DNA of 64,000 bases from a virus. Each line of letters begins with the position of its first letter. The first letter of the stretch is position 1. Location: IMG/VR virus record IMGVR_UViG_3300042386_001406, positions 1-64,000 of that record, one strand, 5' to 3'. The translations under genes and the position numbers were made by a program. Under the pieces are notes generated by a model that worked only from the letters and a program-made list of their open reading frames with translations, made no database searches and had not been told where the DNA came from. Below are positions 11,772 through 58,873 of the stretch, one piece after another.

Positions 11772-13753
11772 TAGATTTAAATACAATATTAAACGAGTTA
11801 ACTGAAGATGATGGACAAACAACTCCACCAGCTATCTGTTACTACCCAGGTGGATTTAAACCACCACATGAAGGACACTATGAGGCTCTTAAAGATTTAG
11901 TGTCACGTCCTTACATTACTAAAGTAATAGTTTTAATTGGACATAAAACACGTGATGGTATAACTAAAGAACAAAGTAAACGTATTTGGGATTTATATTT
12001 AGCCACTACACCAATGGCTAAAGTAAGTGTTAGAATAAGTGAAGATGCCTCTCCAATTAAAGATCTATTTAGTGCCTTTGACTCTGACTTAGAACTAAAA
12101 GCATATGTCGCTGGAGCTAAATCAGAGGTAGAAGAACAAGATTATTTTACCCCATTACAAAAAGCATTTAGTACAAGAGTAATGCCTATATCAATTGATG
12201 AAAAAGTTGTTACTCAAGGTAAACGCTTGTCAGGAACTCAAGTACGTGGTTTAGTAACACAACTTAAAAAAGCAGTATTACAGTTACGTTCAATAGCTGA
12301 TAAATCATCAACTGAGTATTCTAAAGCTAGAAATGCTTATTTAAACACATATGAAGAGTTAAAAGGATGCTTTCCAGAAGCAGTTGTTCAAAAAGGACAA
12401 TATGATGATATTCTTAAAATATTAGGGATACCAGTTTTAAATGTAGACCAACTTCAAGAAAATCAAGAAGATGGTAATTTAATTATACGTGTACCTTATG
12501 CTTTAACAACTAAGATTGAGAATTTTTTAAATACAATGTTAATACCATTTGAATACTCTCAACAAGCATTTGGTGGTAAAGAAAGACGTATGTTAATTCC
12601 TAATCTAAGTGATAATAACGAACAAAAAGAAAAAGTACTTAATTATTTAAGTAAACATAACATACCTGTTAATATTGAAGAAGATTTATTTACTATTAAT
12701 TGGTGGAAACAAAGTTTAGAAGAAATTCAACTTGATGTCCCTACACCAGATGAAAAAGATGTTGATCCTGAACAACTAAAAAAAGGAATTGAAGTAGAAA
12801 AAGAACACACCAACGATGAAAAAACAGCTAAGAAAATAGCGTTAGCTCATTTAGGTGAAGATCCAAAATATTATTCTAAGTTAAAAAAAGCAGGTTTAGA
12901 AGAAACATTAACTGAACCACAAGATAAGACAGACAATATTATAGCTGATTTTATTGATTTTGCCGCTAATGCTCTTGACTTACAAAAAGTACCTAAAATT
13001 ACTTTTAGTGATGATGAGAATTTAGCTAAACAAATGCACGCGTTAGGTGCTTATCAACCTAAAACTGATGAATTATTAGTTGTTAAAGGATCAAGACTAA
13101 CAGCAGATATTTTACGCACATTAGCTCATGAGTTAGTACATCGTAAACAAGCTGAAATGGGTCCATTAGATAAAGAAGATGGTAAAACAGGTTCAGAAGT
13201 AGAAAATGAAGCTAATGCCGCCGCTGGTGTATTACTAAGACAATTTGGTAAATACAGACCAGAAATATTTGAAGAAGCAGATGCGATGAAAGGTGATTAT
13301 AAGATATACTGTGATATGGATGGTGTGTTAGTTGATTTTGATAAAGGGTATGAAGAATTAACAGGTAAAAAAGCTAGTTTTGACACACCAAAAGAAGAAT
13401 TTTGGGAACCAATTTCAAAAGCAGGTGCAGCGTTTTGGATTAAATTACAATGGATGCCTGATGGAAAACAATTATGGAATTATATTAAACCATACAATCC
13501 AGATTTACTATCAGCTCCATCACGTGAAGAATCATCTAAAATAGGTAAATTTACTTGGGTGAAAAGAAACTTACCTGGTACTAAACTTATCTTACGTTCA
13601 GCTGATCGTAAACAAGAATTTGCAACACCAAACTCTATCTTAATTGATGATAGAGCAGATAATATACAACGTTGGAAAGATGCGGGTGGTATAGGTATTC
13701 ATCACACATCAGCTGCTGATACAATACAACAATTGAAAGATTTAGGGCTATGA
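11768..13753 (+). CDS. four-domain fusion: nucleotidyltransferase, DUF5661-like, HExxH, HAD phosphatase
   Basis: A 661-residue protein. It begins MIDLNTILNE-LTEDD (targeting-like). Then come: a cytidylyl/adenylyltransferase-like domain with HEGH (34-37) and SGTQVR (155-160); a DUF5661-like stretch around 336-382 (GIEVEKEHTNDEKTAKKIAL); a zinc-protease-like HELVH (454-458); and a HAD-type 5'-nucleotidase domain starting at DMDGV (516-520) with LIDDRADNIQRWKDAGG near the end. Each catalytic motif looks intact. It could transfer a nucleotide, remove a phosphate and cleave a peptide, or be a polyprotein cut at its own I/L-x-E sites (for example after IFEE before the HAD domain). Coupled by ATGA overlaps on both sides. 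Confidence 0.75.
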   Translation: MIDLNTILNELTEDDGQTTPPAICYYPGGFKPPHEGHYEALKDLVSRPYITKVIVLIGHKTRDGITKEQSKRIWDLYLATTPMAKVSVRISEDASPIKDLFSAFDSDLELKAYVAGAKSEVEEQDYFTPLQKAFSTRVMPISIDEKVVTQGKRLSGTQVRGLVTQLKKAVLQLRSIADKSSTEYSKARNAYLNTYEELKGCFPEAVVQKGQYDDILKILGIPVLNVDQLQENQEDGNLIIRVPYALTTKIENFLNTMLIPFEYSQQAFGGKERRMLIPNLSDNNEQKEKVLNYLSKHNIPVNIEEDLFTINWWKQSLEEIQLDVPTPDEKDVDPEQLKKGIEVEKEHTNDEKTAKKIALAHLGEDPKYYSKLKKAGLEETLTEPQDKTDNIIADFIDFAANALDLQKVPKITFSDDENLAKQMHALGAYQPKTDELLVVKGSRLTADILRTLAHELVHRKQAEMGPLDKEDGKTGSEVENEANAAAGVLLRQFGKYRPEIFEEADAMKGDYKIYCDMDGVLVDFDKGYEELTGKKASFDTPKEEFWEPISKAGAAFWIKLQWMPDGKQLWNYIKPYNPDLLSAPSREESSKIGKFTWVKRNLPGTKLILRSADRKQEFATPNSILIDDRADNIQRWKDAGGIGIHHTSAADTIQQLKDLGL

Positions 13754-43431: not shown

Positions 43432-46400
43432 ATGCCAAATTGGAAAAAAGTCATTGTTAGTGGCTCAAATGCTACTTTAAACTCTGTAAATGTTACAACA
43501 AATGTTGTAGCTCAATCATTCACAGGCTCCTTACAAGGTACATCAAGTTGGGCTGTAAATGCTTTAACAGCATCTTATGCTGACAACTTCACAGTAGCAG
43601 GTACTTTAACAGCCCAAACAATTGTTGTCCAAACAATAACTTCCAGTACAGACTATGTTACTGGTTCAACCATATTTGGCTCTCAATTATCTAATACCCA
43701 TCAGTTTACAGGTAGTGTATCAATTACAGGTTCATTAACTGTTAATGGAGTAAGTAACTTAACAGCATCAAATGCTATAACAGCATCTTATGCTATAAAT
43801 GCTTTAACAGCATCATACGCTTTAACTGCTTCATTTTCTCAAAATGCTCAAACAGCATCTAATATTCAAGGTGGTGCTACTAACTATATACCTGTATTTA
43901 AAACACCTACCTCATTATCTAGTAGTGTAGTATATCAATCAGGATCTCACATTGGTATTAACATAACTAACTTTACAAGTGGTGACCCTGAAGCATTATA
44001 TGTTTTCCAAACACATCCTACATCATTCAATGTTATAACAGGTAAAGGTAACTCAAATAACTACTTACAACTTAACATACAAAATACTAACACTGGTACC
44101 ACTGCTTCTTCAGATATTGTAGCTACAGCAGACAACGGTACTGAAACTAGTAATTATATTGATATGGGTATCAATGGATCTAATTTCTCAGGTCCAATTG
44201 GTGATCCAAATGATGCTTATTTATATTCTGCAGGTAATCACTTACATATTGGTAATATAACACCTGGCCAACCATTACAATTCTTTGTTGGAGGTGATGA
44301 TACCAATTTAAATAGAAAATTACAATTAAACGATAATAACCAGCATAACATGACTGGTTCGTTAAATGTAAGTGGAAGCATTACAGCGTTTAGTTTTACA
44401 GGTTCACTACAAGGTACATCTAGTTGGGCTGAAAATGCTATAACAGCCTCTCACGCTGTAAATGCTTTAAGTGCCTCATATGCTTTAAACGCTACAAATG
44501 CTATAAGTGCATCATATGCTATAAGCGCCTCTCATGCTAACAACGCTACTAGTGCATCATATGCCTTAAATGCTACAAATGCCTCTACAGCATCATATGT
44601 TTTAAACGCAGTATCAGCATCATTTGCTACTACAGCTATAACTGCGTCATATGCTGATAATTTCACAGTAGCAGGTACATTAACTGCTCAAACTATTGTA
44701 GTTCAAACAATAACTTCATCTACTGATTATGTTACTGGTTCAACTATATTTGGTTCTTTACTCTCTAATACTCATCAGTTTACAGGATCTGTAAGTATAA
44801 CAGGTTCATTATCTGTAAATGGTTCAAATGTAATTCTTACTAACCAGACATCTTCAATGACTGTGTTAAGTAGTAGTTATGCTATTTCAGCATCATATGC
44901 TATAAATGCTGATTTCTTAGATGGACAAAATGGTTCAGCATTTGCAACTACTGGTTCAAATATCTTTATTGGTAATCAAACAGTAACTGGTAGTTTATTT
45001 ACTAATGGATCAAATACATTAGTTGGTTCTACTACATTAACTGGTAGTTTAAATATAACTGGATCTACTACTCAAACAGGTAATAATACTTTAATTGGTA
45101 ATACAACATTATCAGGTAGTATTATAATATCAGGATCTACTGGACCTGGTGCTGCAACAGCATCAGTACAAATATATGGTGATATTAGACAAACAGGTTA
45201 TCATAGATTTGATCCTGTAACTACAAATATAGATACTTCAATAACTGCATCTTATATTTTTGTAAGTGGATCTACAAACGACTTATATTTTTCTCAAAAT
45301 AGTGCTGGGTATAGTAACGTAACTCGTTTACGTTGGTTAGAAGGTAACTTATATACTGGTTTATTAAATGGAGGTTTAATTACAGCTGCTACAGGATCTA
45401 CTGTTTATCAAGTAAGTAGTGGTAGTGGTATTATTGTAAACTTAAATGCATCATTAAATGATAATCCGTACCCAACTATTCAGTATCTTAACTGGGGTAA
45501 TTTATCAGCTAGTATTGCTCCTTTAACAGCATCATATCAACAAGCTTTCGTTTCTATTGATTCAAGTGGTAATATTTACCAACAAGGAACACCTTATGCC
45601 GCAGGACAATTTGACACAGAAATTAACATAGGTGTTGTATTATTTCAAAACGGATCTACAATTAACGGTGTTAAAACACAGCCTACTGTAGCATACGGTT
45701 TTGAACAACAACAAAATATATTTAATAGAGCATTTGGACCTTTAAAATTATCAGGATATACTTTAGCACCAAGTGGCTCTTCAACAGGTAGTTTAATAGT
45801 AGCAAGCGGTACAGCTTACTCACCTGGTTCTAACTATCCTATAGATCCAAATAATCCATCCTACACTACTGATAGTGGAACTAATGTATCTAAAATCTTT
45901 AGATATAGACAATCAGGTTCTACTTGGGTATATGATACAAATGCCGGTTTAGGATATGGTGCAATAGACCCAACACAATACTCAGATAATGGTGTACTAA
46001 CAGCAGTACCAGGAACGGGTATTAATAGAGAATTTTCTATTCAAAGAGTATTTTATTTCCCTAACTCAGTTGCAAAAGCTATAGTCGTTTATTATGGTAA
46101 TGCTACATATGCAAGTCTAGTAGATGCAACATCAAATATTGCTTTTGAATCGTTTGTTGAAGCACCAAATACAGCAGCAAACGCAATCTATTTAGGAGCA
46201 ATTATTGTAAGAAATGACGCTAATTTTACAGTTACTGACTCATATGCTATTCAGGCAGGAGGTCTATTTAGATCAGTAGGAGGATCAGGAGGTGGAGGAT
46301 CAACAATAACTCAAACTCTATCCAGTTTATCTGATGTACTAATCTCAGGACCTACAAATGGTCAAGCATTAGTTTATGATACAACTGCTGCTAAATGGAG

Positions 46401-47808
46401 AAACTTATCATCTATTAGTGCTTCTATTTCAGGAAACGCTGCTACAGCAACAACAGCATCTTATGCTTTTACTGCCTCATTTGCTCAAAATGCTCAAACA
46501 GCATCATATGCTTTAACTGCTACAAGCGCCTCATATGCTTTAAATGCTCTAAGTGCTTCATATGCTTTAAATGCTACAACCGCCTCTCACGCTGTAAATA
46601 CATTAAGTGCATCATATGCCTTAACTGCTACAACATCATCCCACGCTATAAGTGCTTTAAGCGCATCATATGCCTTAACTGCTACAAGTGCATCATATGC
46701 AGCTACCGCCTCATCAGCAGATAACTTTACCGTTAGAGGTACTTTAACTGCTCAAACAATTGTAGTCCAAACTATTACATCATCTACTGACTTTGTAACT
46801 GGCTCTACACGCTTTGGAAGCTTATTATCAAACACTCACCAATTCACTGGTAGTGTTAGTATAACTGGAAGTTTAACTGCTATAGGAAATACTAATATTA
46901 CTGGTTCTTTAGGAGTAACTTCAACTGTATCAGCTTCACTTATATATCAGTCTCCAAACACAGGTAATGCTTTTACATCATTAGCAAGCAGTGGAAATAC
47001 TGCTTTAGTTACTATTTCTAGTACAGGAGCTACCATCAACATGGGTAGAGTAGGAGCAATAGGTTTACTTGCTAACTCTACTGATGGTGGTATTATAATG
47101 AATGATGGAGCATATCTTGGAGTATCATCAGGCACACTTAGAATTGGTAGTAACCTTGCTGCTAATAATGTTGTCATAGGTAATTTTGCTGGTTCAACAG
47201 CAACAATAAATGGTAATACTACTATAAGTGGTTCACTAACAGTATTCACAGGTAGCGCAGTTGAATTCCAAGTCACAAATACTGGTGTTAAAATAGGTAA
47301 TATAATTACCGATGTTCATACAGTAACAGGTTCATTAAATATCAGTGGAAGCGTAACCGCAACTAACTTTACAGGCAGTTTGTTTGGTACTGCAAGTTGG
47401 GCTAATAATGCTACTACAGCATCATACGTTTTAAATGCTGTAAGTGCATCGTTTGCATCTACTGCCTCAACAGCGAATAATGGGTTTACTATTGGTATCA
47501 CACAAACATACACCAATACAGTAGCATCATCAGTAGTAGGTTCAAATAATGTATTTACTCAAACAACAGGTTCTTACACATCCGCTTTCTACAAATACAC
47601 TGTGTCAAATGGTGCTAATGCTAGATCAGGTGAAGTAATAGCTGTATGGAATGGATCTTCAGCTCAATATACTGATTATTCAACATTAGATATTGGATCA
47701 ACATCAGGTGTTACACCATCAGTTTCTGTGGTTGGCTCAGATATTTTATTTAACATTACTACAGGTACATCAGGATGGAGATTAAAATCAACAGTAACTT
47801 ATTTATAA
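43432..47808 (+). CDS. long repeat fibre (ASYA-repeat tail fibre)
   Basis: A 1458-residue protein. The N-terminal anchor WKKVIVSGSNATLN is shared with the protein at 42074. Then come arrays of short Ala/Ser/Tyr repeats (SASYALNATSASYAL-like) in three clusters, each followed by a module with LTAQTIVVQTITSSTDYVTG and [17 protein letters not shown]. These modules also occur in the collagen fibre at 53983. Between them lie unique beta domains (a region with QRVFYFPNSVAKAIVVYYGN and one ending NGFTIGITQTYTNTVASS). The repeats probably form a trimeric beta-helical or coiled shaft. No S74-like chaperone is seen at the end, and the small gene following may help folding. Confidence 0.75.
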   Translation: MPNWKKVIVSGSNATLNSVNVTTNVVAQSFTGSLQGTSSWAVNALTASYADNFTVAGTLTAQTIVVQTITSSTDYVTGSTIFGSQLSNTHQFTGSVSITGSLTVNGVSNLTASNAITASYAINALTASYALTASFSQNAQTASNIQGGATNYIPVFKTPTSLSSSVVYQSGSHIGINITNFTSGDPEALYVFQTHPTSFNVITGKGNSNNYLQLNIQNTNTGTTASSDIVATADNGTETSNYIDMGINGSNFSGPIGDPNDAYLYSAGNHLHIGNITPGQPLQFFVGGDDTNLNRKLQLNDNNQHNMTGSLNVSGSITAFSFTGSLQGTSSWAENAITASHAVNALSASYALNATNAISASYAISASHANNATSASYALNATNASTASYVLNAVSASFATTAITASYADNFTVAGTLTAQTIVVQTITSSTDYVTGSTIFGSLLSNTHQFTGSVSITGSLSVNGSNVILTNQTSSMTVLSSSYAISASYAINADFLDGQNGSAFATTGSNIFIGNQTVTGSLFTNGSNTLVGSTTLTGSLNITGSTTQTGNNTLIGNTTLSGSIIISGSTGPGAATASVQIYGDIRQTGYHRFDPVTTNIDTSITASYIFVSGSTNDLYFSQNSAGYSNVTRLRWLEGNLYTGLLNGGLITAATGSTVYQVSSGSGIIVNLNASLNDNPYPTIQYLNWGNLSASIAPLTASYQQAFVSIDSSGNIYQQGTPYAAGQFDTEINIGVVLFQNGSTINGVKTQPTVAYGFEQQQNIFNRAFGPLKLSGYTLAPSGSSTGSLIVASGTAYSPGSNYPIDPNNPSYTTDSGTNVSKIFRYRQSGSTWVYDTNAGLGYGAIDPTQYSDNGVLTAVPGTGINREFSIQRVFYFPNSVAKAIVVYYGNATYASLVDATSNIAFESFVEAPNTAANAIYLGAIIVRNDANFTVTDSYAIQAGGLFRSVGGSGGGGSTITQTLSSLSDVLISGPTNGQALVYDTTAAKWRNLSSISASISGNAATATTASYAFTASFAQNAQTASYALTATSASYALNALSASYALNATTASHAVNTLSASYALTATTSSHAISALSASYALTATSASYAATASSADNFTVRGTLTAQTIVVQTITSSTDFVTGSTRFGSLLSNTHQFTGSVSITGSLTAIGNTNITGSLGVTSTVSASLIYQSPNTGNAFTSLASSGNTALVTISSTGATINMGRVGAIGLLANSTDGGIIMNDGAYLGVSSGTLRIGSNLAANNVVIGNFAGSTATINGNTTISGSLTVFTGSAVEFQVTNTGVKIGNIITDVHTVTGSLNISGSVTATNFTGSLFGTASWANNATTASYVLNAVSASFASTASTANNGFTIGITQTYTNTVASSVVGSNNVFTQTTGSYTSAFYKYTVSNGANARSGEVIAVWNGSSAQYTDYSTLDIGSTSGVTPSVSVVGSDILFNITTGTSGWRLKSTVTYL
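43531..47470 (+). repeat. repeat array: ASYA units and three copies of the fibre module
   Basis: Repeats of GC-A-TCA-TAT-GCT type encode Ala-Ser-Tyr-Ala units at about 43550-43860, 44420-44660 and 46440-46720. Fibre modules with TCTAATACTCATCAGTTTAC-like sequence occur at about 43590-43740, 44650-44810 and 46730-46870. A fourth related copy lies at 54085-54235 in another gene. Confidence 0.75.
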
Positions 47809-47820
47809 AAATATTAAATT

Positions 47821-47994
47821 ATGTTTGAAGTACAAATGCAATTTATCCCAGGAAATGATATGATTTGGGTTGCTAGATTAAATCCAGATGATCCTATCTA
47901 TCAATATGATAATGAAGCTGAAACACAAGCTAAAGCTGATGAATTACAAGCTAATGATCCAACAGGTAGAAAATATAGAGTAGTAAAAATATAA
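47821..47994 (+). CDS. 57-aa protein downstream of the long fibre
   Basis: A short acidic protein starting MFEVQMQFIPGNDMIWVARL and ending RKYRVVKI. No signal or membrane segment. It is well placed: 12 bases after the fibre stop and 6 bases before the next gene. Its size and location fit a fibre-assembly helper, but there is no direct similarity to known chaperones. It is real rather than a shadow because it fills the only gap in this tightly packed strand. Confidence 0.5.
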   Translation: MFEVQMQFIPGNDMIWVARLNPDDPIYQYDNEAETQAKADELQANDPTGRKYRVVKI

Positions 47995-48000
47995 TTATTT

Positions 48001-48711
48001 ATGGGATTAAATTATGGACCAGTGTATACAAGTGTTTCCCAAATTAAGGGACCATCTGGATGGTACAATGTCCGAATAAATGGAGTTGTGGTTATTGTTT
48101 ATGTAAATCAAACTTATAGTGGAGGCGGATGGGTGATGGTATTAGCAAATAGTGCTAGTACTGGAGGAATGAATAATTTAACATACACTAACGCAGTGTC
48201 AGGAGTTAATTATAGATTAAGTGGAACAACAGTGACACCTGAGAGTCGTATAAATACTTCTTTAGCTAGCACTAATTGCTGGATTGGAGTAAGCTATTGG
48301 TTTGCTTTAGCAGGTAGATTAACATCAAATACTGTGACAGTATCTCAATTTGTATCTACTGTCAATGGTGATAGTATAGGTGGATCTAATACAAAACGAT
48401 ATAGATGGAGTTTTAATAGTTTTAACGCTACATATGGAATGGGAGGTGTAACAGCTATAAGTGATGAAACTGGAACTGGATCTCCTGGTTTTTATAGTTA
48501 TCATGCCGCTAATGGATTTTCATTAACAACTTATGATAATGATCAAGACGTTTATGGAGCTAACTGTTCTAATTTATATAATAATAATCCTTTCTGGTAT
48601 GGTGCTTGTTGGTCAGGAAACTATTTTGCAGGTGGAGGTTATGCTGATGCCCCTTATTGGGATGGTTCAGGAGGAGATTATCATAACTACGGAGCAGTAT
48701 ATATAAAATAA
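48001..48711 (+). CDS. fibrinogen-like domain adhesin
   Basis: A 236-residue protein. SGGGWVMVLANSAS near residue 40 and FSLTTYDNDQDVYGANCSNL, then FWYGACWSGN near the end, reproduce the main landmarks of the fibrinogen C-terminal (FReD) fold: the GGGW entry strand, the Asp-rich calcium loop, and the Trp-Tyr-x-x-Cys segment with its disulphide Cys. In animals and some bacteria this fold binds acetylated sugars. No signal peptide, as expected for a virion protein assembled in the cytoplasm. It is likely a receptor-binding tip protein. No FReD gene is usual in T4-like phages. Confidence 0.75.
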   Translation: MGLNYGPVYTSVSQIKGPSGWYNVRINGVVVIVYVNQTYSGGGWVMVLANSASTGGMNNLTYTNAVSGVNYRLSGTTVTPESRINTSLASTNCWIGVSYWFALAGRLTSNTVTVSQFVSTVNGDSIGGSNTKRYRWSFNSFNATYGMGGVTAISDETGTGSPGFYSYHAANGFSLTTYDNDQDVYGANCSNLYNNNPFWYGACWSGNYFAGGGYADAPYWDGSGGDYHNYGAVYIK

Positions 48712-48715
48712 AAAT

Positions 48716-48940
48716 ATGGGAAATTTATCATTACCACCAATGAAATTAATAATGTCTTTAAACCAAGATAATACTTGGAATAAGATTGTAACTTATATAT
48801 CTGATGGAAGTGTTGTGTCTGAAGAATTAAATTTATTTTTATCACCAGATGATATGAATAAAGAATATTTTGATACTTGGGAAACTCAAATGAAGTCTCT
48901 CCCTCTTTATAATATTGTTGAAGTAGAAAGATTTATATAA
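48716..48940 (+). CDS. small hypothetical protein in adhesin array
   Basis: A 74-residue acidic protein (MKLIMSLNQDNTWNKIVTYI, later YFDTWETQMKSLPLYNIVEV). No signal or membrane segment. It is 4 bases after the fibrinogen-like gene and 1 base before the first LamG gene, so it belongs to the adhesin operon. It could be an assembly helper. Function unknown. Confidence 0.5.
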   Translation: MGNLSLPPMKLIMSLNQDNTWNKIVTYISDGSVVSEELNLFLSPDDMNKEYFDTWETQMKSLPLYNIVEVERFI

Positions 48941-48941
48941 T

Positions 48942-49577
48942 ATGCCAATAGCATCAGGACCAAATATAACAACAGACGGATTAATACTAGTATGGGATGC
49001 AGCTGACAAAAACTCATACCCGGGATCAGGTACTACTATATACGATGTAAGTGGAAATGGATACCATGGAACTTTATATAATGGAGTAGGATATAGTACA
49101 GCAAATGGAGGTGTGTTAGTATTTGATGGTTCAAATGATTATGTGTTTGGTGGTCCTAATATGTCTTCAACTAATTACACTGTTATAGGAGCTGCTAAAT
49201 ACGTCTCTATAAGTGGTAGAGTAATAGCAGGAGCAAATAACTGGTTATTAGGACACTGGGCCGGTTACACAAACGATCATTACGCTGAAGGATGGGTTTA
49301 TTATAATCCTTCTATTTCAAATACAGCATGGGCAATATATACTGCTACAGGAAATATAGGTGCAGATAGCTATGGGTTTTATATGAACAATGTTTTATTA
49401 GCTCAAAATAATGGAGGTTCACAAGGACCTAATGGAATATCACTTGGTGCTGGAGGAGCTGGTGGATATGAATTTAGTAATGCACAAGTTAGTTTTATAT
49501 ATGTTTACAACCGTGTATTAACAACAGAAGAAATAACTCAAGTATATAATACACATAAAACACGTTACAATTTATAG
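48942..49577 (+). CDS. LamG/concanavalin A-like adhesin, paralogue 1
   Basis: A 211-residue lectin-like protein. It begins SGPNITTDGLILVWDAADKN, then SYPGSGTTIYDVSGNGYHG, the standard start of phage LamG-like jelly-roll proteins, followed by FDGSNDYV and ending with the helix TEEITQVYNTHKTRYNL. The fold binds polysaccharides or glycoproteins. It is the first of five related genes (this, 49582, 51491, 52209, 52941). Likely a receptor-binding or decoration protein. Confidence 0.75.
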   Translation: MPIASGPNITTDGLILVWDAADKNSYPGSGTTIYDVSGNGYHGTLYNGVGYSTANGGVLVFDGSNDYVFGGPNMSSTNYTVIGAAKYVSISGRVIAGANNWLLGHWAGYTNDHYAEGWVYYNPSISNTAWAIYTATGNIGADSYGFYMNNVLLAQNNGGSQGPNGISLGAGGAGGYEFSNAQVSFIYVYNRVLTTEEITQVYNTHKTRYNL

Positions 49578-49581
49578 TAAT

Positions 49582-51120
49582 ATGGCAGTAGGAACAGGAT
49601 ATAGCAAAATAATAACAGATGGGTTAGTATATGCCCATGATGTATCTGATGTTTTAAACTCATACATAGGAGAACCTACTACAAATCTTATACCAGATGC
49701 CCCTAACAATGGTCAATTTACATTATCTAATAGTTGGGCTACTTATAACACAAACCAATATTGTGGAAATAATGGATGTGGAACATATTGGGCTATACCT
49801 GCTATTGCTAGTGTGTCAAACAATATTGTTACAACAGTAAGTGCTCACCAAATTAGAACATATGATGTTATTCAACCAAACGCTACAGGTGGTGGTGTAA
49901 ATGCAGGCCAAAACTATTTTGCAAAGAAAATATCTGACACACAATTTTCTCTTCATGAATATAATGGATCACAAGATGGATCTCAAGGATATATAAATTC
50001 AGCTACATTGTTGCCTAAAGTATGGGACAGCATAGGATATGATCAAAGAGTATCAGTTAATGCTTCCAGTTTCCCTACAGGATGGTGGGGTTATCCTCAC
50101 TTACCAAATTCAGGTTTGGTTAAAGAAGTAGTATCAGGAGGTGGAAGAAGACCAGGAACAAACTGTATGAGATTTAATGTATGGAGAGGAGATGGAGTAG
50201 CAGATGGTATGGCTTATGGAGTTTATACCCCAGTAACAGCCGGAGATATTATTACTGTTTCCTTCTACGCAAGAGCTGCTACGCCAACGGCTGTTGGTAA
50301 AGGAGGATATTATTCAACATATTTTGGAGGATATGGATCTGGTGGCGGATCATGGGTTACTGGAGCTTATGGAGAATGGGTAAGAAATGTATTTACTTGG
50401 ACAGCATCAGTGACATTTAGTTTTTATTCATATTTCTTCCCAGATGGATCTGGAGATCGATACTCTATGGATATAGCAGATTTACAAGTTGAAGTAAATA
50501 AAGGACATGCTACTCCATTTACAACAGGAACTAGATCTAATACACAAGCATTATTAGACATATCAAGTAAAAATAATACTTTAACTTTAAATAATTTGTC
50601 TTATGATAGTAATGCTCAATTCTTTTTTGATGGAACTGATGATGATATAAGAACATTAGTGAGCAATTCAAAAACTAATGTAACTATGGAAGGAATAGTA
50701 TATGTTAATTTAGGTACAATAGGAACTTTTTTAAGTAATGGAGATGATCCTGGAGGATATTGTATAGGAATAGGACAATATTTTGGTAGTACTGATAATC
50801 AAATAGTAGCATTATTTGGTTATGTCAGATGGATTTTAACAGGAGTTTATTACCAATATACAGGTTATCATCATATAGTGATGACTCTAGATAGTACTTC
50901 AACTCCTTCAATATACATTAATGGAAATCTTATAGGAACATACCCTGGTTCAGCACCTAATAATATATCAGCAGGTACAGGTTTTTGTTTAGGTTCACAA
51001 TGGGGTATTAGATATGCTAATACAAGAATACCTGTGGCAAAATTTTATGATAGTGCTCTAACAGCAGCAGAAATACGTGACAACTACTCTCACTACAAAA
51101 CTCGCTTTAATCTACCATAA
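49582..51120 (+). CDS. LamG-like adhesin with extra N-terminal domain, paralogue 2
   Basis: A 512-residue protein, twice the length of its paralogues. It starts ITDGLVYAHDVSDVLNSYIG (variant of the shared start), then has a long extra beta domain (about residues 35-320; VNASSFPTGWWGYPHLPNSG, later TVSFYARAATPTAVGKGGYY, a carbohydrate-binding-module-like pattern). A typical LamG domain lies at about 325-512, ending LTAAEIRDNYSHYKTRFNL. Two different sugar-binding folds in one chain suggest bivalent recognition. The TAA overlaps an ATATTTAT box. Confidence 0.7.
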   Translation: MAVGTGYSKIITDGLVYAHDVSDVLNSYIGEPTTNLIPDAPNNGQFTLSNSWATYNTNQYCGNNGCGTYWAIPAIASVSNNIVTTVSAHQIRTYDVIQPNATGGGVNAGQNYFAKKISDTQFSLHEYNGSQDGSQGYINSATLLPKVWDSIGYDQRVSVNASSFPTGWWGYPHLPNSGLVKEVVSGGGRRPGTNCMRFNVWRGDGVADGMAYGVYTPVTAGDIITVSFYARAATPTAVGKGGYYSTYFGGYGSGGGSWVTGAYGEWVRNVFTWTASVTFSFYSYFFPDGSGDRYSMDIADLQVEVNKGHATPFTTGTRSNTQALLDISSKNNTLTLNNLSYDSNAQFFFDGTDDDIRTLVSNSKTNVTMEGIVYVNLGTIGTFLSNGDDPGGYCIGIGQYFGSTDNQIVALFGYVRWILTGVYYQYTGYHHIVMTLDSTSTPSIYINGNLIGTYPGSAPNNISAGTGFCLGSQWGIRYANTRIPVAKFYDSALTAAEIRDNYSHYKTRFNLP

Positions 51121-51128
51121 TATTTATT
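51119..51128 (+). promoter_or_regulatory. ATATTTAT box 3 nt before the 115-aa gene
   Basis: Reads AATATTTATT, overlapping the previous TAA; 3 nt before the ATG at 51132. Same extreme spacing as at 31665 and 60257. Confidence 0.35.
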
Positions 51129-51131
51129 TAC

Positions 51132-51479
51132 ATGACAGATAATTTATACCCAGATCGCCGTTGGTTAGTAATACCAACAACAATTACAAATTCAATTGAT
51201 TTTAATCAAGTTGAAGAATCATCTATTGACACACTACGTTTGTCTATAGATAAATCAGAGACATTTGTGAAATATCCTGTCACTGTAGTTACAGCATCTT
51301 ACACACAATCTTATTGGAATCCTGAAACAATGGAATCAGGAAGCTACATAGTAGAAGCAGGAACATATGGACGTCCAGATATATATTCTCCAGCATATCC
51401 AGAATATGAATATCCACCAATGCTTGAATTATTAGCTACACCAGCTTGGACTTCAGGTAGTATGCCAACAACAATATAA
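51132..51479 (+). CDS. small protein in adhesin array, related to 53653
   Basis: A 115-residue protein. The pattern IDFNQVEESSIDTLRLSIDK, then TFVKYPV, then LELLATPAWTSGSMP repeats in the protein at 53653 (IDFTQVLETSADTVRKSVDE, TFVKWDG, LAILATPEWSNPDTGSM), so they are paralogues. One precedes the last three LamG genes and the other follows them. The middle (SQSYWNPETMESGS-like stretch) is unique. They may be fibre-attachment or assembly proteins. Function unknown. Confidence 0.55.
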   Translation: MTDNLYPDRRWLVIPTTITNSIDFNQVEESSIDTLRLSIDKSETFVKYPVTVVTASYTQSYWNPETMESGSYIVEAGTYGRPDIYSPAYPEYEYPPMLELLATPAWTSGSMPTTI

Positions 51480-51490
51480 AATTTTAAGTT

Positions 51491-52195
51491 ATGGCATTTA
51501 CCAATGGACCAAAAATAGGAGGAATAACATTAAATCGTCAATACTTTCAAGACCCAGTATTAGGTAAATCTTTTACTGGAGGAACTACTACTACTAATTT
51601 AGTAGAAAATTCATCATATAACGCCGCTAACGCAACTGGTAAATTAACTAATGGTACTTATTTTTCATCATTAGGAGCTGGTTCTTTTTATTTTGATGGA
51701 AGTGATGATCAGATTAGATATGATCAAGGAGCTAACACTTATGATCCTTTATTGTTACCTACTGTTTGTACAGTTTATGCTTGGGTATATCCTTTGTCTT
51801 CAACAGGAGGTATATTTTCACATTGGAGTGGAGGACCAGTAAATTTAGGATATTGGATAAATGGAGGAAAAATAGCTGTTTATCAATATGATGGTGTTTG
51901 GACCAATTATGATAGTTCAGGAGCATCAGTATCAACAAATGCATGGTCTCAAATTGCTTGGGTTAGATCAAGTTCATCCAGTATGAGTTTATATTTAAAT
52001 GATAGTTTAAATGGAACTTTAACAGCTACTTCTCCAAGAGTTTTTGGAGGTGGAAATAATGGTGTGTTAGGATCTTTATGGGGATGGCAGTTTTTTAATG
52101 GTTATATGGGTGTATTTATGATATATTTTGAAGCTCATAGTTTATCTCAAGTACAACAAACGTATAACATATTTCGTGATCGTTACGGAGTATAA
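51491..52195 (+). CDS. LamG-like adhesin, paralogue 3
   Basis: A 234-residue jelly-roll protein. The N-terminus (NGPKIGGITLNRQYFQDPVL) differs from the other paralogues, lacking the DGLVLNLDAS element. The body (FYFDGSDDQIRYDQGANTYD, then AWVYPLSSTGGIFSHWSGG) and end (SLSQVQQTYNIFRDRYGV) are clearly LamG-like. Divergent strands probably carry a different glycan specificity. Same operon as its neighbours, with 13-base spacing to the next. Confidence 0.7.
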   Translation: MAFTNGPKIGGITLNRQYFQDPVLGKSFTGGTTTTNLVENSSYNAANATGKLTNGTYFSSLGAGSFYFDGSDDQIRYDQGANTYDPLLLPTVCTVYAWVYPLSSTGGIFSHWSGGPVNLGYWINGGKIAVYQYDGVWTNYDSSGASVSTNAWSQIAWVRSSSSSMSLYLNDSLNGTLTATSPRVFGGGNNGVLGSLWGWQFFNGYMGVFMIYFEAHSLSQVQQTYNIFRDRYGV

Positions 52196-52208
52196 AACAA
52201 ATTAATAA

Positions 52209-52922
52209 ATGGGAATATCAGCTGGACCAGATATAATACAAGATGGATTAGTACTAAATCTAGATGCTAGTGATAAGAATTCTTATCCTGGGTCAGGTAC
52301 TACTTGGTTTGATATATCTCAAGGATTAGTATTTAATTCTTATGGAACTACAACTTCTTGGGATATTGTTGGAGGAAGTAGAGCATTTACATTTAATGGC
52401 TCAGGTTATTGGGAATGTGGCTCAGGATTCAGTAATGTTAATTTAGGAGGTGATTGTACAATAATATTATGGTTATATGAAGTAGGGCATAGTGTTAGAA
52501 AAACTATTTTTGAAAAAGCAGGAACAACATATGCCTCTTATCAACAAGAGGTAGCTATGACTTGGGAAGTAGGACAAGATATATCTTGGTATAGTAGAGC
52601 TATACCAGATTATGACTATGCTAGTACTAATGCGTGCACAACTAATGCTTGGAATATGATGGCTATTAAAATGTCTACAGGATTAACTTCTACATCTAGA
52701 ACAGGATTTTATAGTAAAAATGGAGGACCTTTTATATCAACTTATACTTCACGTAGTAATACAGCATTAATACCTGCTGGCGCTATAAGAGTAGGGACAG
52801 GATATGCTGGAACTGTAGATAATGGGAGTATATCTAGTGTATTATGTTATAATAGAATGTTAAGTGATACTGAAATTTCCCAAAACTACAACGCTCAAAA
52901 ATCCCGCTTCGGCCTCAAATAA
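52209..52922 (+). CDS. LamG-like adhesin, paralogue 4
   Basis: A 237-residue protein starting GISAGPDIIQDGLVLNLDAS with the SYPGSGTTWFDIS element and ending MLSDTEISQNYNAQKSRFGL. The concanavalin-like core is complete. Four Cys residues in the middle (GECGSGF-like, NACTTN) are not shared by the paralogues. Closest to paralogue 5 in its start and end. A sugar-binding virion protein is the likely role. Confidence 0.72.
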   Translation: MGISAGPDIIQDGLVLNLDASDKNSYPGSGTTWFDISQGLVFNSYGTTTSWDIVGGSRAFTFNGSGYWECGSGFSNVNLGGDCTIILWLYEVGHSVRKTIFEKAGTTYASYQQEVAMTWEVGQDISWYSRAIPDYDYASTNACTTNAWNMMAIKMSTGLTSTSRTGFYSKNGGPFISTYTSRSNTALIPAGAIRVGTGYAGTVDNGSISSVLCYNRMLSDTEISQNYNAQKSRFGLK

Positions 52923-52940
52923 TCAAATAGTTATACCCGT

Positions 52941-53645
52941 ATGGCAACACAATTCGCAAATGGTAAAATAGTAACAGACGGTTTAGTATTAAATCTAAAC
53001 GCAGCTGATAGAAATTCATATCCTGGATCAGGTACGACGTGGACTGATATGAGTAGTGGAGGCTACAATGGTACCCTGACTAACGGGCCTATGTATTCAA
53101 CCGGAGACGGCGGTAGTATTGTTTTCGACGGAAGTGATGATTACGTTCAAGTAACATCCCCGTTTGGAAACGTAGATTGGTCTTCAAGAGCATGGTCTTT
53201 TAGTGCTTTTATGAAGTTAGACGTTTTAGGAGATAGATGTTTAGTAAATTTAAATTCTGCAAACAGTAGTGATTATGTTGTAACAAACGTGTTTTACACA
53301 GACGGAAAGAGCTATTGGTATTTTATAAAAAACTCAACTGCAGTACAGACAAACTTTGTCCAAACGACTAGTAATTTTTCAACTGGTCAAATTTTTCATT
53401 TCGTAATGACCTATAACGGAAATGGTCTATCTACAGGAAATATATTTTTCTATAAAAATGGAGTTCAACTAACAACAACAAACGGAGGTAGTGCAGGATT
53501 AGCAAATCAAACCGGATTACAAATAGGCGGAAATTATTTTCTTGATGGAAACGTCTACAACTTTATCATGTACAATAGAGCACTCTCAGCCTCAGAAGTA
53601 CTACAAAATTTTAACGCCCAAAAATCACGCTTCGGATTAATATAA
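52941..53645 (+). CDS. LamG-like adhesin, paralogue 5
   Basis: A 234-residue protein with the shared start (GKIVTDGLVLNLNAADRNSY), then FDGSDDYVQVTSPFGNVDWS, and the shared end ALSASEVLQNFNAQKSRFGL. Codon use differs from neighbours: more C- and G-ending codons in the first 250 bases (for example GACGGCGGT and CCCGTTT), while the end returns to phage-typical codons. This suggests a recently acquired or recombined 5' part. It is the last LamG gene, 8 bases before the small paralogous gene. Confidence 0.72.
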   Translation: MATQFANGKIVTDGLVLNLNAADRNSYPGSGTTWTDMSSGGYNGTLTNGPMYSTGDGGSIVFDGSDDYVQVTSPFGNVDWSSRAWSFSAFMKLDVLGDRCLVNLNSANSSDYVVTNVFYTDGKSYWYFIKNSTAVQTNFVQTTSNFSTGQIFHFVMTYNGNGLSTGNIFFYKNGVQLTTTNGGSAGLANQTGLQIGGNYFLDGNVYNFIMYNRALSASEVLQNFNAQKSRFGLI

Positions 53646-53652
53646 TAAAAAT

Positions 53653-53931
53653 ATGGAAACACAATTACAAGAGTATGACAACAGAGAATTCATGATATTT
53701 AATGTATCTGAATTACCACAAATTGATTTTACCCAAGTATTAGAAACATCAGCTGATACTGTTAGAAAATCAGTTGATGAAACAAAAACATTTGTTAAAT
53801 GGGATGGCACTATACCTCAATGTGTAGCTGATTTAACTACTAAGGAAGGACCATATAATTATGATGAAATTTTAGCAATTCTTGCTACACCAGAATGGTC
53901 AAATCCTGATACAGGTAGCATGAAACCTTAA
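53653..53931 (+). CDS. small protein in adhesin array, related to 51132
   Basis: A 92-residue acidic protein, paralogous to the 115-residue protein at 51132 (shared IDF-QV-E-S-DT-R-S-D, TFVK and LATP-W-GSM elements) but without its central insertion. It lies between the last LamG gene and the collagen-like fibre. It could be a chaperone or connector for these fibres. Its TAA overlaps an ATATTTAT box. Confidence 0.55.
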   Translation: METQLQEYDNREFMIFNVSELPQIDFTQVLETSADTVRKSVDETKTFVKWDGTIPQCVADLTTKEGPYNYDEILAILATPEWSNPDTGSMKP

Positions 53932-53939
53932 TATTTATA
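53930..53939 (+). promoter_or_regulatory. ATATTTAT box upstream of the collagen-like fibre
   Basis: Reads AATATTTATA, 43 nt before the ATG at 53983. The leader holds a 7-bp hairpin at 53950-53973 (ATCTCAG / CTGAGGT, one T-G pair). Confidence 0.5.
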
Positions 53940-53982
53940 CCAAACCCGTATCTCAGGGACAGTGAACTGAGGTAATATAAGT

Positions 53983-56900
53983 ATGGCTAATGAATTTGTT
54001 GCTCGCAATGGTATCATTGCGTTGAATGACTCTCAAATAACCGGATCGTTAAGTGTTGGCAGTAATGTTACTGCCTCTAATGCGCTTATCACAGGTACAA
54101 TAACTGCCCAAACTTTATTAGTACAGAATATTACCTCATCTAGAGATTATGTGACGGGTTCTACTGTATTTGGATCATCACTTTCTAACACACACCAATT
54201 TACAGGTTCTGTTTCAATAACAGGAAGTTTAACTATACCTTCTATTCCACAAGGTACTACTGAAACTAATATATTAGTAATAGATGGTGATGGTGGATTT
54301 AAATATAGAAATAATTTAAGTTTACAAGGTGCCCAAGGTGCCACTGGACCTCAAGGTGCCCAAGGTGCTGTTGGACCACAGGGAGCTCAAGGAGCCCAAG
54401 GTGCTGTTGGTCCACAGGGTATTCAAGGTATACAAGGAGCCCAAGGTGCAGTTGGGCCTCAAGGTATTCAAGGTATACAAGGAGCCCAAGGGGCTACTGG
54501 ACCGCAGGGAGCACAAGGCGCTCAAGGCGCTCAAGGTGCAACAGGACCTCAAGGAGCCCAAGGCGCCCAAGGAGCTACAGGACCCCAAGGTATACAAGGT
54601 ATACAAGGTATACAAGGCGCACAGGGTGCAACTGGACCTCAAGGTGCCCAAGGCGCTCAAGGTGCTCAAGGAGCTACAGGCCCACAAGGAGCTCAAGGAG
54701 CTACAGGACCCCAAGGTATACAAGGTATTCAAGGTATTCAAGGTATTCAAGGCGCACAGGGTGCAACTGGACCTCAAGGTGCCCAAGGCGCACAAGGTAC
54801 ACAAGGCGCAACAGGACCTCAAGGTATTCAAGGTATTCAAGGTATTCAAGGTATTCAAGGCGCCCAAGGTGCTACAGGTCCTCAGGGTGCCCAAGGCGCT
54901 CAAGGAGCTCAAGGAGCTACAGGTCCACAAGGAATCCAAGGTGTACAAGGAGCTCAAGGAGCTACAGGTCCACAAGGAATCCAAGGTGTACAAGGAGCTC
55001 AAGGTGCTACAGGACCTCAAGGTATTCAAGGTATTCAAGGTGCCCAAGGTGCTACAGGCCCTCAGGGTGCCCAAGGCGCCCAAGGTGCTCAAGGTGCAAT
55101 TGGACCACAAGGCGCCCAAGGTGCAACTGGACCAAACGCTGGAATTACTTCATATACAAATCCAGGTGATAATCGTGTTATCACTTCAGTTAACTCATCT
55201 ACTATTAATGGTGAGGCTAACTTATTATTTGATGGTTCAACCTTAAGAATAACAGGATCTTTAATACAATCTGGATCAACAGGTGCTTCATTATATGGAA
55301 GTGGTTCAGGTGTATTTACAGTAGATGGTACTGTAGGTAGATTATTCCAAGTAGATGATTCACTTACAGGATCATTATTCTCAGTTAATACAGCTGGTGG
55401 TTTACCTGTAATAGAAGCCTTCTCAGACAATACAGTTAAAATTGGTAAATATGGATCTGAAGCGATTGTAATATCTGGTAGTAATAATACAACCCAAATC
55501 AGTGGTTCAATTAAATTACCTTCATTAGGTTCAACTTCAGACACAACTGTAGTAACATTTAATACTACAACTAAAACAATAGGATATAATACAGTAGCAG
55601 GACCTCAGGGAGCCCAAGGCGCAACTGGACCTCAAGGCGCCCAAGGTGCTACAGGTCCTCAGGGTGCCCAAGGCGCTCAAGGTGCTCAAGGCGCAACAGG
55701 ACCTCAAGGTATTCAAGGTATTCAAGGTGCCCAAGGCGCCCAAGGCGCAACAGGTCCACAAGGTGCTCAAGGTGCCCAAGGCGCTCAGGGCGCGACTGGA
55801 CCTCAAGGCGCTCAAGGAGCCCAAGGAGCCCAAGGTGCTCAAGGAGCAACTGGGCCTCAAGGTGCACAAGGCGCTCAGGGAGCCCAAGGCGCGACTGGAC
55901 CTCAAGGCGCTCAAGGTAACCAAGGCGCTCAGGGAGCCCAAGGTGCACAAGGTATTCAAGGTATTCAAGGTATTCAAGGAGCTCAAGGTTCACAAGGTGC
56001 CCAAGGTTCTCAAGGTGCACAAGGTGCAACTGGGCCTCAAGGAGCTCAAGGTGCTACTGGTCCAAATGCAGGTATAACTTCATATACAAATCCAGGCGAT
56101 AATAGAGTATTAACTTCAGTTAACTCATCTACTATCAATGCTGAGACAAATTTAACATTTGATGGATCTACATTAACTGTATCTGGAAGTACAGCAAATA
56201 AAGTATCAGTTATAGGTTCAGGTAGTGGTGTAAATACAACTCTATTCTCAGTAGATGGAGCTAATGGTAGATTATTTGAAGTATCAGATGATTTATCTAA
56301 CTCACTATTTTCAGTTAATACTATTGCAGGTATTCCTGTAATTGAAGCATTCGCTGATAATACAGTTAAATTAGGTAAGTTTGGAGCTGAAGCTATTGTA
56401 ATATCAGGAAGTAACAATACAACTCAGATTAGTGGTTCTATTAAATTACCGAGTTTAGGATCTACATCTGATACTACAGTTGTTACTTTTAATACAACAA
56501 CAAAAACTATAGGATATAATACAGTAGCAGGTCCTCAAGGTGCACAGGGTGCTCAAGGTGCACAGGGTGCTCAAGGTGCTCAAGGTGCTCAAGGTATTCA
56601 AGGTATTCAAGGCTCTCAAGGAGCCCAAGGCTCTCAAGGTGCCCAAGGAGCCCAAGGTGCAACAGGCCCTCAAGGTGCCCAAGGTGCTCAAGGATCTCAA
56701 GGTGCACAAGGCGCCCAAGGCGCTCAAGGCGCGACAGGCCCTCAAGGTGCCCAAGGTGCTCAAGGATCTCAAGGTGCACAAGGCGCACAAGGAGCCCAAG
56801 GCGCGACAGGCCCACAAGGTGCTCAGGGTAGCCAAGGCGCTCAAGGAGCACAGGGTGCCCAGGGAGCATCTGGCGCCACTATCTTAGGTAGTGCTAATAC

Positions 56901-57942
56901 ATGGACTGGTGCTAACTATTTCCAAAGCAATCTTGGTGGATATGCTGGTGTTTTAAGTAGTCCTCCTCTTCAAGCATATTCAACATCTAACAACTCAGCA
57001 TTTATGTCTTTTCATAAAGGAGGAGTATATGCTGTTAATATGGGATTAGATGCTGATGATGTTTTAAGAATTGGTGGATGGAGTGCTTCAGCTAATAGAT
57101 GGCAACTTGACATGAGCGGTAATAATACTGTTGCTAGTTCTTTCAGAGCCCCAATATTCTATGATTCGGATAATACAGGATATTATTTAAATCCAGCTAG
57201 TACATCTAATATAAATCAAACCCAGTTAGACTATAATATGGCTACTGGTGTTGGTAATAATAGTTTTAATGTATCTAAATCTTTACTAGGTAGTATTCAT
57301 ATAGTAAATGGAGCTGGTCCTTCATCTGGTGATGGAAGACAAGCAGGTATTACTTTTATGGGAAGTTCAGCTTCAGAAGCTCAAGCTGGTATATATGTTG
57401 GTAATAATAACAGTGCTGGTACTTACATGGGATTTGCTACAACAGATTCTTATGCTACTGGTCCTCAATTATTCATGTCAGCTTATAATGGTGGATATGT
57501 TTACTTTCATAGATCATATGTTGAAGCTGCGGGTTCATTCCGTGCTCCAATATTCTATGATTCAGCTAATACAGCATATTACTTTGATGGTTCAGCTACA
57601 GGTGACTCAATTCGTGTAGCTGGTGATGTAGTAGCTTATTACTCAGATGAACGTTTAAAAGATATTAAATGTAATATATCAGATGCTTTATCTAAAGTAA
57701 TGACTTTAAATGGTTTCTATTATGAACCAAATAAAATAGCTCAGTCATTTGGATATGAGAAAAAATTACAAATAGGTTTATCAGCCCAACAAGTAGAAAC
57801 TGTTTTACCTGAAGTTATTAAAGATGCTCCTATAGGAAATGGATATAAAACATTAGATTATTCTAAATTAGTACCATTACTTATTGAAGCCATCAAAGAA
57901 CAACAAAAACAAATTGATGAGTTAAAAACTAAATTAAAATAA
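53983..57942 (+). CDS. collagen-like tail fibre with S74 intramolecular chaperone
   Basis: A 1319-residue fibre. Residues 1-85 hold an anchor and a fibre module shared with the long fibre ([16 protein letters not shown], then [17 protein letters not shown]). Three collagen-like blocks (GPQGAQGAQ-type triplets) lie at about 115-384, 541-696 and 850-963, separated by two duplicated beta domains. Then come head/knob repeats ([17 protein letters not shown] and [17 protein letters not shown]), then the S74 endosialidase-type chaperone. The latter begins at Ser1221 (YYSDERLKD), where self-cleavage is expected, and ends in a coiled coil. It should be a trimeric host-recognition fibre. Confidence 0.88.
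54328..56868 (+). repeat. collagen-like triplet repeats in three blocks with duplicated spacer
   Basis: Blocks at about 54328-55134, 55602-56067 and 56529-56868 consist of repeated CAAGGTGCCCAAGG-like 9, 18 and 27 bp units encoding Gly-x-y. The two spacers between them (about 55135-55601 and 56068-56528) are about 465 bp and clearly duplicated (for example both encode [20 protein letters not shown]). The array is prone to recombination. Confidence 0.85.
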
Positions 57943-57949
57943 AGTTTTT

Positions 57950-58873
57950 ATGGCTTTACCAGCTAGTGGACAAATATCAATGAATAATATTAGAACTGAG
58001 TTAGGGATATCTACTCAATCACCTTTCTCTCTAGATACTGCTATAGATGGTGGATATGTTTATCTTAATGAATGTAGCGCTGCTAGACCAAACGCTGCTA
58101 CCCCACAAACAATAAGTGAATGGTATAGCTATAATCATAGCGCTGTTTGTACAAATAGAGGTAGTTTTAAATTTAGCAGCACTAGTTGTGCTGATGCTTG
58201 TACTGGACCTTTTACAACAACTCTTTATTCTTGTGGATTATCAATTGGAAATATTCTTAGATCAGGATTAATATCTCCAGGTAACTACTGTGGAGGTCCT
58301 GTTATTAATATTGTTGGATATTATAGCAATGGAACAACATGTTATCAAGTTACTGATCAAACTATTGTAGCTATATCTTCTTGTCCTACTCCAACACCTA
58401 CACCAACACCAACCCCTACTCCAACACCAACACCTACTCCAACACCTACACCAACACCTACACCAACACCTTCATCAGGTGTTACTATTACAGTATATAC
58501 TAAACAAAATACTAATGGTGTTGGAAATGGATATAGTGTTTATTATCGTCTAAACGGATGTAGTGGAAAGGGTGCATGGCAACAGTTATCTTGTGGTAGT
58601 TGCCCAACTAGTGATAGCTGCTCAGCTTGCTCTGGTACTATCTCAGCTAATTCAAACCAAGATATATCAATCGCTATACTAGATTGTAGTCTTGGAACAG
58701 GTATATCATTTAATGCTAGTGATAATACAAGTACTTGTCCTTCAAACGCAGCTAACTATTGTGATAATGCTGACTGTACAGGTACACCATTCACATTTAA
58801 TTCTGGTACATCAAATAAAAATATAGCAATTAATGTTTATACAGGTAAACTTGGATATTTGTATTGCTTATAA
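57950..58873 (+). CDS. Cys-rich virion protein with (TP)n linker
   Basis: A 307-residue protein. The first 60 residues (MALPASGQISMNNIRTELGI) are a phage virion anchor motif. Then comes a Cys-rich domain (about 65-143), a nearly pure Thr-Pro linker (about 145-174), and a second Cys-rich domain (about 176-307; SCGSCPTSDSCSACSGTIS-like). The Cys residues should form disulphides only outside the cell, so folding may finish after release. Likely a tail-tip or capsid adhesin. Confidence 0.6.
   Translation: MALPASGQISMNNIRTELGISTQSPFSLDTAIDGGYVYLNECSAARPNAATPQTISEWYSYNHSAVCTNRGSFKFSSTSCADACTGPFTTTLYSCGLSIGNILRSGLISPGNYCGGPVINIVGYYSNGTTCYQVTDQTIVAISSCPTPTPTPTPTPTPTPTPTPTPTPTPTPTPSSGVTITVYTKQNTNGVGNGYSVYYRLNGCSGKGAWQQLSCGSCPTSDSCSACSGTISANSNQDISIAILDCSLGTGISFNASDNTSTCPSNAANYCDNADCTGTPFTFNSGTSNKNIAINVYTGKLGYLYCL
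58384..58473 (+). repeat. near-pure Thr-Pro coding repeat
   Basis: About fifteen consecutive ACN-CCN codon pairs (CCTACACCAACACC-type), the purest of the four Pro-Thr tracts in this window. Confidence 0.85.

Follow-up and report, generated by a model that had tools for sequence, protein, structure and literature searches.

The 64,000-nucleotide (nt) stretch of DNA analysed here, referred to as the window, comprises positions 1 to 64,000 of IMG/VR virus record IMGVR_UViG_3300042386_001406 (76.5 kb, incomplete), and carries at 48942-53645 an array of five genes, A to E, that encode LamG-like proteins within a tail-fibre block. We propose that this array consists of slots, placed one after another, that take interchangeable tail adhesins with a lectin fold, each a stand-alone protein. 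Taken as a whole, this explanation is in our view probable. At each slot the junctions would be kept, running from the last part of one gene through the spacer into the 5' part of the following one, of which 20-107 nt are shared between the window and its syntenic relative L005 and up to ~205 nt in closer pairs; often a slot-typical N-terminal leader would be kept too. The gene interior, which encodes most of the LamG beta sandwich, would be swapped as a cassette by homologous recombination through the shared junctions, both between phages and between slots. The LamG proteins would probably sit on the fibres or the baseplate and bind surface glycans, the products of small linked genes (the s family) are probably assembly or adaptor factors, and a GIY-YIG homing endonuclease encoded beside a LamG gene may assist the exchange in some relatives.

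The wholesale replacement of interiors between constant ends is seen in related phages. LamG genes were collected from viral contigs, which have up to 9 of them per locus, and each gene was divided into three parts: the N-block, covering roughly its first 68 codons, the middle and the C-block. When 277 genes were clustered at an identity cut-off of 35%, there were 2 clusters of N-blocks, 3 of C-blocks and 229 of middles. Among 179 gene pairs with an N-block identity of at least 80%, the middle was less than 30% identical in 172 and at least 60% identical in 7, with none at 0.3-0.6. Similarly, in 57 same-slot comparisons between loci with close s genes (mean s 0.86; not all comparisons are independent), the middle DNA identity was <0.6 in 54 and >=0.8 in 3, with none between. 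Since point mutation would give intermediate values, this division of the middles into two classes speaks against it.

The limits of homology lie inside the genes. In related pairs, homology of ~80-95% begins 46-100 nt upstream of the end of one LamG gene, crosses the junction and reaches about nt 200-220 of the next. In several pairs it typically breaks off close to +205 nt and is found again from about -75 nt (for example, contigs L048/L060, L051/L052/L065 and L044/L172); earlier stops are found at 135 nt in L068/L092 and at 103 nt in L027/L036. Ends can be alike where middles differ, as in L135/L166, which share 51/53 N-block codons and 24/114 middle residues, and the reverse is found in L140/L108, where 113/114 middle residues and 48/61 N-block residues are identical. 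Moreover, L052 carries in slot 1 a middle that L065 has, at 94% identity, in slot 2, showing that interiors occur in different slots. The homology across junctions, the replaced interiors and the absence of intermediate middles together indicate that interiors are exchanged by recombination. Codon sharing within a genome exceeded that across genomes in 76/87 loci for the N-block and 69/87 for the C-block; the corresponding excess for the middles, in 49/87 loci, was not clear (p 0.06). A sign test on middle-close pairs gave 10/16 (p 0.23), which is not significant, and at strict DNA cut-offs no case combined high N- and C-blocks with a low middle. As a separate observation, two neighbouring LamG genes of Synechococcus phage S-SKS1 (L023) share a 259-nt block at 88% identity and at the same gene coordinates, and most of the rest has diverged, making the pair a mosaic in a cultured isolate.

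The array of the window and the genes around it are as follows:

43432-47808, + strand: FIB1, a long repetitive fibre-like gene of 1458 amino acids (aa), upstream of the array
47821-47994, + strand: 57-aa gene between FIB1 and the first slot, conserved in the syntenic relative L005
48001-48711, + strand: Fibrinogen_C-like (FReD) gene in the first slot (Pfam PF00147, 1.3e-5, above cut-off)
48716-48940, + strand: 74-aa gene travelling with the FReD gene, by comparison with L190
48942-49577, + strand: LamG gene A, 211 aa (relatives-only LamG profile, paralogue matches)
49582-51120, + strand: LamG gene B, 512 aa, with a C-terminal LamG domain at residues about 324-511
51132-51479, + strand: s1, small LamG-linked protein of 115 aa, between B and C, paralogue of s2
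51491-52195, + strand: LamG gene C, 234 aa (Pfam Laminin_G_3, 8.7e-14)
52209-52922, + strand: LamG gene D, 237 aa (relatives-only LamG profile, paralogue matches)
52941-53645, + strand: LamG gene E, 234 aa (Pfam, 2.1e-13; AlphaFold model with a LamG/ConA-like beta sandwich)
53653-53931, + strand: s2, small LamG-linked protein of 92 aa, directly after E
53983-57942, + strand: FIB2, collagen-repeat fibre gene with a C-terminal Peptidase_S74 chaperone

An earlier, sequence-only reading had described A to E as a tandem array of lectin-like paralogues beside fibre genes, with a common start motif and/or a common end motif. All five open reading frames (ORFs) are present where it placed them, on the same strand and spaced by 4-19 nt except where one gene intervenes. 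The array is tandem but not uninterrupted, since s1 separates B from C; the two small paralogous members s1 and s2 had been overlooked, as had the FReD gene at 48001-48711, which fills a further slot. Its position next to the fibres is as described, the whole block being flanked by the fibre-like FIB1 (43432-47808) and by FIB2 with its collagen repeats and Peptidase_S74 domain (53983-57942), and the array has a comparable place in L005 and in Flavobacterium phage immuto. In the immuto isolate 2-6A, the order between the fibres is LamG-LamG-LamG-s. FIB1 is related to FIB2 (phmmer 130 bits, measured in the near-identical copy L001) and is kept at the equivalent place in L005; its repeats and position suggest a fibre role.

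The LamG genes are homologous, with identities of 36% between E and A (E-value 8e-29), 32% between E and D (4e-21) and 29% between A and D (2e-18). The common motifs are found at both ends of A, D and E, but B and C show little of the start motif; the last 200 aa of B match C (8e-10). Only B, C and E pass the Pfam Laminin_G_3 cut-off. Pfam gave nothing for A and D, which were both recovered by a phage LamG profile built from relatives, with no rows from the window; in a search space of just the five window proteins, its best-domain E-values were 1.6e-69 for E, 9.6e-44 for A, 6.8e-42 for D, 4.8e-24 for C and 6.2e-22 for B. Gene B also has an insert of about 260 residues near its start, ahead of the LamG domain, that matches no Pfam family and may be a second binding domain.

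The model of E, predicted from a 29-sequence alignment, is a two-sheet beta sandwich with a mean predicted local distance difference test (pLDDT) of 77.5 and a predicted template modelling score (pTM) of 0.82; the parts defined best include the N-terminal region (residues ~11-70) and the last 34 residues. Structure comparison matched it to concanavalin/LamG-type domains, one of the top matches being 5hon (Z 20.0, root-mean-square deviation 2.6, 191 residues), the lectin-like domain 4 of an arabinanase, solved with arabino-oligosaccharide. The model and these matches bear out the lectin-type fold assigned earlier, and the predicted fold suggests that the LamG proteins bind carbohydrate.

The constant-variable pattern is also seen between the window and L005, at six junctions:

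47517-48020, + strand: end of FIB1 to +19 of the first-slot gene, 74.8% DNA identity to L005
48937-49006, + strand: junction into A, to +64, 84.3%
51046-51451, + strand: -74 of B into s1, 69.0%
51138-51518, + strand: s1 to +27 of C, 77.0%
52870-53048, + strand: -52 of D to +107 of E, 85.5%
53568-54927, + strand: -77 of E through s2 to +944 of FIB2, 76.4%

None of the LamG interiors of the window aligns with L005, and other LamG matches between the two are limited to the first ~200 nt. In the first slot, L005 has a LamG gene where the window has the FReD gene and both start with MGLNYGP, so that one slot can hold a different fold. Viral contigs contain the FReD gene at 6 loci, of which two belong to copies of this virus, and it had no match in the phage record collection. 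In L190, a 66% match over the FReD and 74-aa genes ends at the start of A.

The paralogues of the window are not recent copies of one another. Recent copies would be expected to use identical codons for identical residues. In the N-blocks of the A/D/E pairs, 16/40, 14/29 and 15/26 codons are shared, compared with 18.0, 12.8 and 12.2 expected from codon usage, and this random level of sharing argues against a recent duplication. The closest relatives found for E sit in other phages: E is 77-78% identical to its relatives in L002 and scores 390 bits to the L002 gene versus 83 bits to its own paralogue A (measured in the identical copy L001). Because A, D and E are saturated at synonymous sites, their origin by recent tandem duplication within this genome was rejected. 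Of the interpretation in the sequence-only reading, the lectin fold, the place and the recombination-driven variation are retained, the last being borne out by the kept ends and replaced interiors of related phages. The proposed gene amplification, if read as recent in this genome, is contradicted by the synonymous saturation and by the closer relatives of E elsewhere.

The s genes are linked to the LamG genes. s1 and s2 are paralogues (30% identity, E-value 5e-11) of a family present in at least 484 viral contigs. In a search that ran independently of LamG, and for the 80 best loci, a LamG gene was present in 79/80 and 80/83 s genes lay within 100 nt of one. The family has no Pfam or PHROG family, no PDB sequence match and no PDB fold match with an E-value below 1, and its good fold matches are solely uncharacterised or unnamed viral proteins. 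s is a small and common phage protein that the family libraries searched do not contain. N-terminal leaders vary by slot, with MST/MSN starts after s in 21/29 cases (p 9e-14, for leader classes picked after inspection). From the position and conservation of s, our guess is that it is an assembly or adaptor factor.

As for the mechanism of exchange, the best fit is homologous recombination that runs through the conserved junctions, with recombination enzymes that we infer; RecA-family matches were found in 5/8 records searched (4 above cut-off), with none in this incomplete record. In L057, L059 and L060, a GIY-YIG/NUMOD3 homing-endonuclease-like gene (L060:3720-4460) lies between two LamG genes. 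The related L048 has no GIY-YIG gene at that site, and from nt 207 onwards its LamG gene ahead of the site is different. As arrays with and without the endonuclease differ in the preceding LamG gene, homing with co-conversion could move cassettes in some relatives. Related endonucleases adjoin LamG genes in L061 and L078/L130, and a further relative is found in L102. A scan for the late promoter TATAAATA found 20 sites versus 16 expected, which is no excess over chance.

The location in the fibre block, the lectin fold and the turnover of the interiors make it likely that the LamG proteins bind receptors; we also infer a location in the virion and a glycan ligand. Isolates lend this indirect support. 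LamG genes of immuto are annotated as structural protein and the S-PM2 LamG gene as virion structural protein, on a basis that we have not seen. In S-PM2d, a gene block has been described as potentially encoding adhesin components, and an allele in one of its ORFs rose from 38% to 100% in three chemostats (PMC9910659); by our own conversion of coordinates, the block includes a LamG gene.

Several points weigh against the slot-and-cassette explanation. By the same conversion, the swept ORF of S-PM2d adjoins the LamG gene and is not in it, and its allele was already at 38% beforehand. No binding, proteomic or host-range datum was found for these LamG proteins. The 5' tracts shared by the window and L005 are only 20-107 nt long, against 205 nt where pairs are closer, and no GIY-YIG match was found in this incomplete record. 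The relatives are mostly metagenome assemblies, the middle is a weak synonymous control with few same-residue sites, and an apparent recombinant in L057 was set aside because its gene starts 22 nt from the contig edge.

It could be argued that the conserved ends reflect a constraint of the LamG fold and that the middle drifts by point mutation, without any exchange of cassettes. The conserved blocks are indeed the best-predicted parts of the model (pLDDT about 90), and synonymous sharing among A, D and E is not above random. This account is already contradicted for the relatives, where intermediate middles are absent from the 179 pairs with close N-blocks and the 57 same-slot pairs, near-identical middles occur with diverged ends, one middle is found in different slots, and homology spans intergenic DNA and ends inside genes. 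Overall, we regard it as very improbable. A diversity-generating retroelement is hardly credible as the source of variation in the LamG genes. Variable lectin-type proteins adjoining fibres are typical targets of such elements, which counts in its favour, but the variation here is block replacement rather than scattered substitutions, and the retroelement was rejected as neither this record nor those of seven relatives, several of which are fragments, yielded a reverse transcriptase.

Other alternatives concern what the proteins do. The LamG proteins may be lectins of the virion whose ligand is host slime or a polysaccharide of environmental or algal origin, for foraging or adherence, and not the infection receptor. 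The fold is common to the lectin-like domain 5hon of a polysaccharide-degrading enzyme, each phage has multiple different lectin-type genes, and a collagen-repeat fibre adjoins the array. However, full interior replacement among close relatives is easier to explain by arms races over host receptors, and we consider a foraging function unlikely. We find it decidedly improbable that the proteins are non-virion lectins freed at lysis, which might, for example, block receptors on debris or on competing phages. They are stand-alone and have no obvious attachment domain, but their genes lie in the fibre block, relatives are annotated as structural, and a large S-PM2 protein annotated as virion structural has C-terminal LamG domains.

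We conclude that array exchange is a widespread variant of the known exchange of tail-adhesin modules. In T-even gp38 adhesins, conserved motifs reportedly flank hypervariable segments, as Trojet et al. 2011 are said to have described. The gp38 adhesins too are encoded by separate small genes beside the fibre genes of T4-like phages, and recombination between their conserved motifs exchanges the variable segments; the LamG genes likewise have variable interiors between conserved flanking blocks. They differ from gp38 in having a LamG beta sandwich in place of the gp38 fold, a row of several paralogous slots in place of one gene, a linked small s gene, and a swapped unit that is most of a domain. 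Given the LamG match, a relation to gp38 in sequence or fold is unlikely.

Hypervariable lectin-like host-recognition genes also adjoin tail fibres in the metaviromic islands, or host recognition clusters, of marine phages, which have lectin-like or concanavalin A domains (PMC3909814, PMC7029224) and variability restricted to parts of genes (PMC3909814). In the accessible parts of those descriptions, the constant-variable-constant blocks of each gene, the slot-conserved junctions and the s family do not appear. Laminin G3 domains, reported as domain occurrences on jumbo-phage tail fibres (PMC7824862), are similar in that concanavalin-fold lectin domains go with fibres and other virion components; the accessible passages of that report describe neither arrays nor exchange. 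In Alteromonas phages, a host-recognition module is shared together with its chaperone (PMC10579305), so that receptor-binding genes are exchanged along with a helper gene. By the accessible part of that report, the helper there is a fibre chaperone and the module is transferred whole. A partial literature search found no account of an arrangement in several slots, of their conserved junctions or of the s family.

More tentatively, and with some doubt, aquatic T4-related phages could have a multi-slot adhesin system in which junctions and leaders are fixed by slot, lectin cassettes (mostly LamG, and fibrinogen-like in the first slot) are exchangeable, a dedicated s protein installs or attaches them, and homing endonucleases sometimes drive replacement. 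The host-recognition regions of uncultured aquatic phages, and the rate of their turnover, are poorly known. The array would provide a readable code, with constant junctions for detection and a variable interior for typing. The LamG pattern was found in at least 536 viral contigs and s in at least 484, so that in metagenomes the array could help to match phage strains with types of host surface.

The terminase, portal and capsid genes of this aquatic phage are T4-related. The closest isolate by portal and capsid is Flavobacterium phage immuto (58% and 56%), followed by Microcystis phage Mel-JY01 (52% and 50%), and with these as the nearest isolates, a flavobacterial or a cyanobacterial host is possible. 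Contig L001 is of the same population, with 2 differences in 20.7 kb, and L188 is a further copy of the virus, with 1 difference in 7.6 kb. Elsewhere in the window, the gene at 57950-58873, after the fibre block, has a proline-threonine repeat tract (PTPTPTP), and 11768-13753 encodes a 661-aa protein whose C-terminal part matches the 5'-3' deoxyribonucleotidase family (3.7e-28).

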